Shown in pieces: positions 1,415-18,769 of a DNA stretch of 40,056 nucleotides. Made by a program: the position numbers and the translations under genes. The DNA is from Bacteroidales bacterium. GTDB taxonomy: Bacteria; Bacteroidota; Bacteroidia; Bacteroidales; F082. The first letter of the stretch is position 1, and the number at the start of each line of letters is the position of its first letter. The stretch is taken from positions 1 through 40,056 of the forward strand of contig JALVZH010000064.1 in NCBI GenBank assembly GCA_027022105.1. The letters are read 5' to 3'. The notes under the pieces are model-generated. The model had not been told where the DNA came from. It saw nothing but the letters and a program-made list of their open reading frames with translations, and ran no database searches.

Positions 1415-1649
1415 CCTAATTCCGAGACATCTACAGGTTGGCCTTGTGGGATGGAATAGCGAAGGAATCTTATACCGGTTCTGATAGGACATGTTGGCAA
1501 TAGCCATCCGGATAGGCAGAGTCGTACTACTAACTCCTCATAATTCAGAGGCATCAACAGGCTGACATCGTGGTTAAGAATGCCGATGAATCTCATTCTC
1601 GTACTTCTTTTTCAATTTGCAATACAGTATTGATAATAGGGGGCGGTGC
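1415..1649 (+). repeat. Family A repeat, copy A1 (degenerate, doubled core)
   Basis: Shares the family A core: AATTCCGAGACATCTACAGG, then GGAATAGCGAAGGAATCT, then CTTCTTTTTCAATTTGC. The core occurs twice within this copy (about 1420-1475 and 1545-1620), separated by a degenerate hairpin module. It is followed by the second half of a family B repeat. The 1269-3363 interval contains no gene I can support; it is filled by repeats A1-A4, B1-B3 and a GC-rich repeat. Confidence 0.7.
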
Positions 1650-17269: not shown

Positions 17270-17464
17270 ATGATTATTATTCCTGTAAAAGAGGGCGAAA
17301 ACATCGACAGAGCTTTAAAGCGTTACAAACGCAAATTTGAAAAAACGGGCACCATGCGTGCTTTGCGTGAAGGACAGCGGTTTGTCAAACCGTCGGTAAG
17401 AAGAAGGGAACAGCGTTTGAAAGCGATTTACATCCAAAAGCTCCGTCAGGCCGAACAAGGCTGA
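17270..17464 (+). CDS. rpsU: Ribosomal protein bS21
   Basis: 64 residues, basic, with the family pattern VKEGENIDRALKRYKRKFEK..RALREGQRFVKPSVRRR. It is part of the small subunit near the anti-Shine-Dalgarno end of 16S rRNA. Structural work on Flavobacterium johnsoniae ribosomes showed that bS21 helps hide that end. The leader has AAAGTAGGT seven bases before the ATG, one mismatch from a full Shine-Dalgarno sequence. This is noteworthy because autoregulation of rpsU through an SD has been reported in this phylum. It is the first gene of the conserved rpsU-recombinase-hpf-tuf cluster. Confidence 0.97.
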   Translation: MIIIPVKEGENIDRALKRYKRKFEKTGTMRALREGQRFVKPSVRRREQRLKAIYIQKLRQAEQG

Positions 17465-17497
17465 TTTTTTTGCTTTTTTTAGGATTTTTCTTTGCAA

Positions 17498-17551
17498 GAA
17501 ACTTTGAACCGGACAGATTTTTTTGTATCTTTGGTTCAAAGTTTCTTTTTT
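17498..17551. terminator. Inverted repeat after rpsU, terminator-like, overlapping the recombinase promoter
   Basis: Perfect 13-bp arms GAAACTTTGAACC (17498-17510) and GGTTCAAAGTTTC (17533-17545), a 22-nt loop with a possible inner AGAT/ATCT pairing, then six T. This could end the rpsU transcript. The loop is longer than usual, so an operator is also possible. Confidence 0.5.
17503..17533 (+). promoter_or_regulatory. Promoter of the xerC-like recombinase gene, inside the inverted repeat
   Basis: TTTG at 17503-17506, a 19-bp spacer and TATCTTTG at 17526-17533: a full match to the phylum consensus. The -33 box lies in the left arm of the inverted repeat and the last G of the -7 box is the first base of the right arm. 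The transcript would start near 17540, leaving a leader of only ~12 nt before the ATG at 17552. Confidence 0.7.
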
Positions 17552-18448
17552 ATGAGCATATCGCTTTTCATTAAATATATTGCTTACGAAAAACGGTTTT
17601 CAGAACATACCCAAAAAGCCTACGAATCAGACCTGAACAGCTACTGCCAATACCTGAAAGAACATTTTGACCTGATAAAACCGGAGGAGGCAACCACCGA
17701 AATGATTCGCTCGTGGGTAGCCCGAATGATGGATGAGGGTTATAATACTTTGTCGGTAAACCGGAAACTCAGTACCATAAAATCGTTTTACAGGTTCTTG
17801 CAATTGGAAGGTATTATAAAAAACAATCCCGCACACAGTATTCACTCGTTAAAAAAACCTGGAAGAATACCCGGATATGTAAAAAAAGACTCAATGGAAA
17901 GGTTGATTGAAGAGGTTTCGGAAAATACTTCCACCCGCGATTTTCGTGAATTCAGGGATGCTCTGGTTATCGACTTGCTCTATTCAACCGGTATGAGGCT
18001 GTCGGAACTCATCAATCTCACCGAAGACTCTTTTGATTTTGCAACAAATACTCTGAGAATAAAAGGAAAAAGAAAAAAAGAAAGGTTGGTTCCGTTTACC
18101 GGTTCACTCAAAAATGAGGTAAAGGATTATCTTGCACTAAAAGAAAAAACATTCGGCTCTGACAATACACCTTATATTATAGTAACCAATAAAGGAAACA
18201 AAGCCTACCCGAAAATGATTTACCGTATTGTTACAAAAACACTGTCTGCATACACGCAGGGCAAAAAGAGCCCGCATGTTTTGCGGCACACTTTTGCCAC
18301 CCACATGCTTAACAACGGAGCCGGATTACAAACCATAAAAGAATTGCTGGGTCATGCCAATCTTTCGACAACACAGATTTATACCCACACAACCATCGAA
18401 CAGTTAAAATCAATATATTCCCGGTCTCATCCAAGAGCCGGATTCTAA
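17552..18448 (+). CDS. xerC: Tyrosine recombinase, XerC/XerD-like
   Basis: 298 residues with an N-terminal SAM-like core-binding domain (1-100) and a C-terminal catalytic domain. Catalytic residues are all present: R149 (STGMRLSEL), a lysine in the KGKRKKERLVP hairpin (about K173), H242 and R245 (HVLRHTFATHML), H268 (LGHANLSTTQ) and nucleophile Y277. Xer proteins resolve chromosome dimers at dif. Which Xer type this is cannot be settled by eye, so the symbol is provisional. The start at 17552 is chosen because the upstream TTG (17492) lies before the promoter. The position between rpsU and hpf is conserved across the phylum. Confidence 0.88.
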   Translation: MSISLFIKYIAYEKRFSEHTQKAYESDLNSYCQYLKEHFDLIKPEEATTEMIRSWVARMMDEGYNTLSVNRKLSTIKSFYRFLQLEGIIKNNPAHSIHSLKKPGRIPGYVKKDSMERLIEEVSENTSTRDFREFRDALVIDLLYSTGMRLSELINLTEDSFDFATNTLRIKGKRKKERLVPFTGSLKNEVKDYLALKEKTFGSDNTPYIIVTNKGNKAYPKMIYRIVTKTLSAYTQGKKSPHVLRHTFATHMLNNGAGLQTIKELLGHANLSTTQIYTHTTIEQLKSIYSRSHPRAGF

Positions 18449-18456
18449 TCATTTAT

Positions 18457-18467
18457 AAAAAGGAGGT
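18457..18467 (+). promoter_or_regulatory. Full Shine-Dalgarno sequence before hpf
   Basis: AAAAAGGAGGT ending five bases before the hpf ATG, fully complementary to the 16S 3' end. Most genes in this window have no SD, so this site stands out. Confidence 0.8.
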
Positions 18468-18472
18468 TTATT

Positions 18473-18769
18473 ATGAACGTAAACATTAGTTCGCTGCATT
18501 TTAAAACCGATTCGAAGCTTGAAGACTTTATTCAAAAGAAGTTGAACAAGCTTACCGGCAGATATGACGGCGTTTTGGGTTCGGATGTTATTCTTAAACT
18601 GGACAAATCCGACAGTCATGAAAACAAAGTAGCAGAGATTAAACTCAATTTAAAAGGGATGGAATTGTTTGCCAAGAAGCAAAGTAAGACTTTTGAAGAG
18701 GCTACCGACATGGCTGTTGACGCCCTTAAAAAGCAGATAGAGAAGCACAAAGAGCGCTTCAAAAAATAA
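18473..18769 (+). CDS. hpf: Ribosome hibernation-promoting factor, short form
   Basis: 98 residues of the HPF/RaiA family (N-terminal beta-alpha-beta-beta-beta-alpha domain only). It binds the small subunit at the mRNA/tRNA channel during slow growth and stabilises inactive ribosomes. Signature segments: LHFKTDSKLEDFIQKKLNKL, DVILKLD and FEEATDMAVDALKKQIEKHK. The C-terminal dimerisation domain of long HPF is absent. It is preceded by an unusually strong Shine-Dalgarno sequence 24 bp after the recombinase gene, and followed by an intrinsic terminator. Confidence 0.93.
   Translation: MNVNISSLHFKTDSKLEDFIQKKLNKLTGRYDGVLGSDVILKLDKSDSHENKVAEIKLNLKGMELFAKKQSKTFEEATDMAVDALKKQIEKHKERFKK

Follow-up and report, generated by a model that had tools for sequence, protein, structure and literature searches.

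A probable rpsU terminator in a Bacteroidales bacterium, with the putative xerC promoter nested between its arms

In a 40,056-nucleotide stretch of DNA from a Bacteroidales bacterium (contig JALVZH010000064.1, analysed at its full length and hereafter called the window), the short spacer between rpsU, encoding ribosomal protein bS21, and xerC, encoding a tyrosine recombinase, carries an inverted repeat that holds promoter boxes within its span. We consider it highly probable that this repeat is the intrinsic (Rho-independent) terminator of rpsU, and that the xerC promoter lies nested between the two arms. A polymerase coming from rpsU would transcribe both arms, and its RNA would fold and end in the T tract that abuts the xerC start codon, while a polymerase binding the -33 and -7 boxes would start at about position 17538, inside the right arm. 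RNA from the nested promoter would lack the left arm and would therefore form no terminator, leaving xerC to be transcribed with a leader of about 14 nt. In this way, about 55 bp would keep the transcription of a ribosomal-protein gene apart from that of a recombinase gene, on our assumption that the two need to be expressed differently.

A promoter and a hairpin on the same bases

The two genes are separated by 87 nt. The features of the spacer and of the genes that flank it are as follows, in window coordinates:

17270–17464, plus strand: rpsU, ribosomal protein bS21, 64 aa (NCBIfam TIGR00030, 52.2 bits, cut-off 28.95; Pfam PF01165)
17496–17510, plus strand: left (5') hairpin arm, which contains the -33 box (from repeat finding, pairing and covariation)
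17503–17506, plus strand: -33 box TTTG of the putative xerC promoter, within the left arm and N19 from the -7 box
17526–17533, plus strand: -7 box TATCTTTG of the putative xerC promoter, its final G being the first base of the right arm
17533–17547, plus strand: right (3') hairpin arm (from repeat finding)
17538–17551, plus strand: predicted xerC mRNA leader AAAGTTTCTTTTTT, with the start placed by setting the -7 box at -12 to -5
17546–17551, plus strand: T tract of six T, the U tract of the putative terminator, abutting the ATG (from the sequence)
17552–18448, plus strand: xerC, XerC/D-family tyrosine recombinase, 298 aa (TIGR02224, 302.6 bits; TIGR02225, 255.7 bits; PF00589, PF02899)

rpsU is the gene whose transcript the hairpin would terminate. 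As for the recombinase, its best model is XerC (TIGR02224), at a score below that model's cut-off of 335.15 bits. The inverted repeat consists of two perfect arms of 15 bp, 22 nt apart. An initial annotation of this DNA, made from the letters without database searches, had recognized the repeat, albeit with arms of 13 bp. It had also placed the -33 box in the left arm, the edge of the -7 box in the right arm, and six T followed by the ATG directly behind them, all of which agrees with the coordinates above. The repeat thus carries a full promoter, TTTG-N19-TATCTTTG, with the T tract and the xerC start codon next to it. Promoters of the Bacteroidota sigma-A factor have a -33 box TTTG, with their boxes about 19–21 nt apart. 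The second motif, TAnnTTTG, is the flavobacterial sigma-A -7 box, located at -12 to -5 in a passage of PMC9723704.

When folded as RNA, the hairpin reaches -23.9 kcal/mol, compared to -10.0 ± 2.5 kcal/mol for 200 dinucleotide shuffles (z = -5.5, with no shuffle as low). RNA beginning at 17538, and hence devoid of the left arm, folds no better than its shuffles (z -0.5). The stem is A+T-rich and the unpaired middle is long for a terminator. At the level of sequence, both elements are present and overlap: the two Bacteroidota boxes at an N19 spacing, which recurs in relatives, and a stable, covarying hairpin followed by a T-rich 3' side with a tract of six T. This bears out the earlier proposals that a promoter is built into the repeat and that RNA coming from rpsU would contain a terminator. 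The proposal that the xerC mRNA would be free of the hairpin likewise stands, since its predicted start falls within the right arm; its leader, estimated at ~12 nt in the initial annotation, is now predicted to be 14 nt.

A sigma-70 scan and a short-loop terminator scan had no entry at the rpsU-xerC site, in our view because the promoter is of the Bacteroidota type and the loop is larger than the 3–8 nt considered by the terminator scan. No Rfam family matched the site. Between the rpsU stop and the hairpin (17465–17490), we observed that a motif TTTT[AT]AGGA is kept in 12 of 12 genus members, and that related motifs, e.g., TTAAGGGAA, occupy the same place in some other loci.

The boxes keep a nearly fixed distance and register to the hairpin

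We counted the distances between TTTG and TAnnTTTG in 145 distinct rpsU-xerC spacers of usable length, without requiring a hairpin. The two boxes are 19 nt apart in 47 of these spacers, 14 nt apart in two and 18 nt apart in one, and no other distance between 14 and 24 nt occurs among them. The 19-nt spacing is not a search artefact.

The position of the boxes relative to the hairpin is likewise conserved. In 68 of 149 spacers, we were able to anchor both boxes (using a looser motif, 19 or 20 nt apart) together with a pairing register. A 19-nt spacer with register 37 accounts for 52 of these, followed by a 20-nt spacer with register 38 (n = 7) and a 19-nt spacer with register 36 (n = 5); the remaining combinations are 20/44 (n = 2), 19/38 (n = 1) and 19/35 (n = 1). 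Where the spacer has 20 nt, the register is 38 instead of 37 in 7 of 9 cases, shifting together with the spacer, and 44 in the other two.

The arms are conserved as pairs in the RNA strand

For the analysis of covariation, we aligned the 52 of 68 anchored regions that share the 19-nt spacer and register 37, yielding a gapless alignment of 58 columns. Across its 50 distinct rows, 94.5% of 800 cells pair, a percentage that is flattered because the rows were selected for boxes and pairing, and both sides have changed in 9 of 16 pairs. The covariation score is 0.433, compared to 0.222 ± 0.011 for shuffles and 0.060–0.134 when the arms are slid by 1–3 columns, with the proviso that related rows are counted several times and the sequences are not independent. 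RNAalifold, provided with the alignment as its sole input, recovered 13 of these pairs. The initial annotation had called for a look at the conservation of the arms in relatives; what is conserved is their pairing.

The mismatches within the repeats distinguish between selection on RNA and selection on DNA. In 97 repeats, collected with a finder that treats G-T and A-C alike and unaffected by the above row selection, we counted 1442 Watson-Crick pairs, 51 G-T, 4 A-C and 16 others (binomial P against equality of G-T and A-C, 2e-11, uncorrected for relatedness). The same imbalance was seen in the 68 anchored regions (75 G-T and 1 A-C, the register there being chosen with half credit for G-U), and with one sequence per genus or contig (51 G-T and 0 A-C, where composition alone predicts 62% G-T). 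In regions with an exact TTTG, the base opposite T is A (150) or G (38), and the base opposite G is C (60) or T (4), with 4 exceptions; that is, in 188 of 192 cases the fixed T of the -33 box faces A or G, both of which pair with U in RNA. The two flanks also differ: T averages 5.5 of the 8 nt that follow the right arm, and A averages 2.3 of the 8 nt that precede the left arm (97 regions). Since the departures from perfect pairing are far more often G-U than A-C, the target of selection is the plus-strand RNA, as opposed to a symmetric operator in the DNA. On this evidence, the pairing is retained in plus-strand RNA, i.e., in the RNA that would come from rpsU.

The nested form is the rule in the family and common outside it

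We found xerC in all 12 genus genomes searched (the window's included), the 11 others encoding a protein of 50–59% identity. In each of them it is preceded by a hairpin that holds the promoter with a 19-nt spacer, as found in a search that allowed spacers of 15–22 nt. The arm sequences themselves vary within the genus, reading GAACC/GGTTC in the window and GATTC/GAATC or GAATC/GATTC in most others.

A broader survey covered 168 xerC upstream regions: 12 from the genus, 80 from named genome contigs and 76 from family genomes, with some genomes present twice. In 161 of these regions rpsU lies directly upstream, and in 7 none is in reach; the set comprises 149 distinct spacers. The nested form, with a strict promoter inside a T-tailed hairpin ending at the xerC start, was present in 85 of the 161 regions, and a T-tailed hairpin at the xerC start without a strict promoter motif in 51. 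The rest are divided between 7 tandem arrangements (a terminator, then a promoter), 7 regions with a hairpin only further upstream, 4 with neither and 7 with a spacer length outside the classification range. Loops of up to 8 nt were found in 14 of the 51 motif-less hairpins, and none of these 14 holds a strict promoter motif, though some are long enough to do so. Given the 51 motif-less, 7 upstream-only and 4 empty regions, nesting is therefore not universal in Bacteroidia. Within the family (84 regions), the nested form makes up at least half of the loci in 14 of 15 genera with data; among the named contigs (77 regions), there are 25 nested loci and 39 whose hairpin lacks the strict motif. 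By this classification, the nested form is the rule in the family and common yet not universal outside it. Across most family genera, and in some of the wider Bacteroidia sample, arm sequences have been rewritten with their pairing retained.

The exception among the 15 genera is a sister genus, g14, which exhibits mixed forms. Some of its loci are nested, and 13 are tandem, with a terminator loop of 3–5 nt and a separate promoter downstream, a count that depends on the classification and falls to 7 when the hairpin is forced to the ATG. This forced classification mislabels some g14 loci as well as L017, which is nested by eye, while the other calls L017, L042, L045, L072 and others tandem, a spurious upstream hairpin having scored higher. 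At another locus (L131) the hairpin lies 131 nt upstream, probably as a result of a wrongly chosen start. As the nested and tandem forms both occur within g14 (among L153–L185), their conversion could be traced on a species tree. We also observed a spacer (L024) in which a plain terminator (16-bp stem, loop of 5, T tract) is followed downstream by a nested element, such that both architectures occur together.

The element occupies one place per genome in the genus

In the 12 genus genomes, the arm pattern (CTTTGANNC, 20–22 nt, GNNTCAAAG), a dyad and hence matching on both strands, has a single location per genome, the rpsU-xerC spacer. A regulon was considered and rejected, as the pattern lies solely at xerC in 12 of 12. 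In a scan of 440 kb, covering the window and about 12% of one same-genus genome (in 20 stretches), we found the promoter spacing combined with such a stem only at the two rpsU-xerC sites, and 5 first-order Markov copies of the 440 kb yielded 0 such combinations. The window and 400 kb of same-genus DNA hold 54 intergenic T-tailed hairpins, 31 of them with loops of 4–7 nt; only 2 of the 54 enclose a promoter, both of them at rpsU-xerC.

A covariance model of the element matched 70 of 100 family genomes. In 68 the match lies directly upstream of a scored XerC, at a distance of up to 60 nt except for G053 (130 nt), taking the place with the best E-value in each. Two strong matches (G077:C5 and G079:C109) come from genomes in which no XerC was scored, and three weak matches are located at other places (G079:C372, G014:C91 and G089:C44; E 3e-4 to 6e-3). 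Because rows of the model came from many of the same genomes, the family search mainly shows that the model finds little else. At the level of the order, 16 of 198 genomes matched, the window included; apart from the window, the best site falls in the rpsU-xerC spacer in 10 genomes and elsewhere in 5. At least 2 of these 10 (L215 and L222) are records already in the model (L056 and L045). One of the 5 sites elsewhere, in another family, looks like a second nested case (L220; G192:C119, about 1501–1558, minus strand). Its arms read GTTTTGAAGC...TAGCTTTGCTTCAAAAC, with T behind them and TTTG-N19-TAGCTTTG enclosed, and it precedes a 238-aa ORF and not xerC, with a model E-value of only 8e-5.

Alternative explanations

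The initial annotation had suggested that, as DNA, the repeat could be an operator for the recombinase. In general terms, XerC or another dimeric repressor would bind the repeat and shut the enclosed promoter. The dyad indeed surrounds the promoter, where a repressor would act, and a core ACTTTG...CAAAGT recurs across much of the family; this core, however, consists for the most part of the -33 box and the bases that pair with it, and the inner halves of the arms change in a paired fashion. Symmetric conservation of the DNA, with no preference for G-T over A-C, was not what we found: a DNA palindrome does not predict the strand-asymmetric mismatches, and the arms change between genera, the 3' side is T-rich, and many g14 loci, including the 13 tandem ones, do without the dyad. 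Moreover, the repeat occurs at one place per genome in the genus, and likewise in the family with few weak exceptions. Xer/dif sites comprise two 11-bp half-sites around a centre of 6–8 bp, and the 15-22-15 spacing of the repeat is unlike the 11-6-11 of a Xer core site. With its 15-bp arms, the 22 nt between them and arm sequences that differ between genera, the repeat was also rejected as a Xer/dif site. The mismatches and the changing arm sequence speak against a DNA operator of XerC, and we regard the operator explanation as a whole as exceedingly improbable. It is also very unlikely, in our assessment, that the site is a terminator and nothing more, its boxes being due to chance in A+T-rich DNA and xerC being transcribed through partial read-through from rpsU. 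Short-loop hairpins without a strict promoter do occur just before xerC (e.g., L077, L085 and L090), and Flavobacterium psychrophilum has transcripts that are put down to partial termination in a passage of PMC9723704. Chance boxes, however, would not explain a 19-nt spacing that emerged unrequested, with three spacers for all other distances together, nor a register that moves with the spacer, nor the persistence of the promoter outside the hairpin in g14.

Alternatively, control could be exerted on translation, with the structure burying the xerC start in the read-through RNA and only the short mRNA being translated. In line with this, in all 12 genus members the computed cost of opening the start is higher in the read-through RNA (median 12.0 kcal/mol) than in the short RNA (median 5.0 kcal/mol), a comparison that is partly built in, as the opened stretch includes part of the right arm. 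Taken alone, such a switch accounts neither for the T tract nor for the separate terminators of g14. We consider it quite unlikely as the explanation of the element; it can, however, act together with termination.

Returning to a terminator with a nested promoter, we infer that termination and initiation take place at the positions given above and that the read-through RNA is poorly translated. For Flavobacterium johnsoniae, a passage of PMC9976891 reports separate transcription of rpsU, which is in line with a terminator, the spacer of that species being outside our comparison. A more speculative extension is that each polymerase terminating at the end of rpsU would sit on the xerC start, whereby the output of rpsU would block or feed xerC initiation, and that the arrangement was kept across Bacteroidia for the sake of this regulatory coupling. 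We find this extension doubtful. If it were true, chromosome-dimer resolution, along with the downstream hibernation factor gene hpf by read-through, would be tied to the rate of ribosome synthesis.

Relation to known systems

The element shares with a Rho-independent terminator a stable RNA hairpin and a U tract after a coding sequence, and differs from it in the 22 nt between its perfect arms (in the window), which hold promoter sequence. Like a Bacteroidota sigma-A promoter (-33 TTTG / -7 TAnnTTTG), it has both boxes and a 19-nt spacer, yet here the boxes double as paired arms of an RNA hairpin. In insertion sequences, transposase promoters are formed in terminal inverted repeats, and at rpsU-xerC a recombinase promoter likewise has its boxes in two inverted arms. 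However, only the promoter lies between the rpsU-xerC arms, and there is no sign of mobility. An insertion-sequence end was rejected as well: instead of multiple copies or variable positions, we found a single place per genus genome and the same syntenic place in the family.

In Salmonella, an overlap of terminator and promoter between tufB and secE regulates expression and affects fitness (Brandis et al. 2019, as cited in a passage of PMC7055797, with PMC8046335 as a second source). As described in these passages, the terminator of the upstream operon overlaps the downstream promoter, and the upstream gene serves translation, which is also the case at rpsU-xerC. Unlike tufB-secE, rpsU-xerC has both boxes inside the span of the hairpin, a nearly fixed register and boxes of the Bacteroidota type, and its arms covary across genera; for Salmonella, this comparison follows the published description. 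The effect of tufB-secE on expression and fitness was tested by its authors. We thus view rpsU-xerC as a variant of the known terminator-promoter overlap, whose new feature is that both boxes fall within the hairpin span. Among the literature matches listed, in a search with most subscription journals outside its coverage, we found no treatment of rpsU-xerC or of a promoter within a terminator hairpin in Bacteroidota; a text search for "rpsU" in the main text of the Bacteroides thetaiotaomicron atlas (PMC10994844) gave no hit.

In the arrangement proposed here, one sequence would be used by two machines, with the sigma factor reading it as DNA and the terminating polymerase reading it as RNA. 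At about 55 bp, it suggests itself as a natural promoter part for Bacteroidota with built-in insulation. The element also carries two warnings for annotation, namely that terminator and promoter calls on the same bases can both be right, and that a dyad conserved at a promoter is not necessarily an operator.

Neighbouring genes and the hpf leader

Family searches (NCBIfam, Pfam) further identified an HPF/YfiA protein in the window and a DUF4143/AAA_14 protein upstream. Past xerC, the gene order is hpf, tRNA-Thr, tRNA-Tyr, tRNA-Gly, tRNA-Thr, an ORF, tRNA-Trp and further ORFs. We take the ORFs downstream of hpf to be tuf (before tRNA-Trp), followed by secE, nusG and rplK, and the rpsU-xerC element adjoins the same kind of gene cluster as does tufB-secE.

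The leader of hpf (18473–18769) contains a strong Shine-Dalgarno (SD) sequence, AAAAAGGAGGTTTATTATG, within 18450–18475 of the window. Among the fetched loci, 64 of 92 distinct hpf leaders have GGAGG between -23 and -4, compared to 5 of 224 G001 ORFs (called mechanically from ATG in 400 kb, with a minimum length of 200 aa), 2 of 143 xerC starts and 0 of 89 rpsU starts. In Bacteroidia ribosomes, the anti-SD is hidden by bS21, and hpf might be translated by ribosomes free of bS21. For F. johnsoniae, rpsU is named as the only obvious SD gene in a passage of PMC9976891; in the loci fetched here, the SD gene is hpf and not rpsU.
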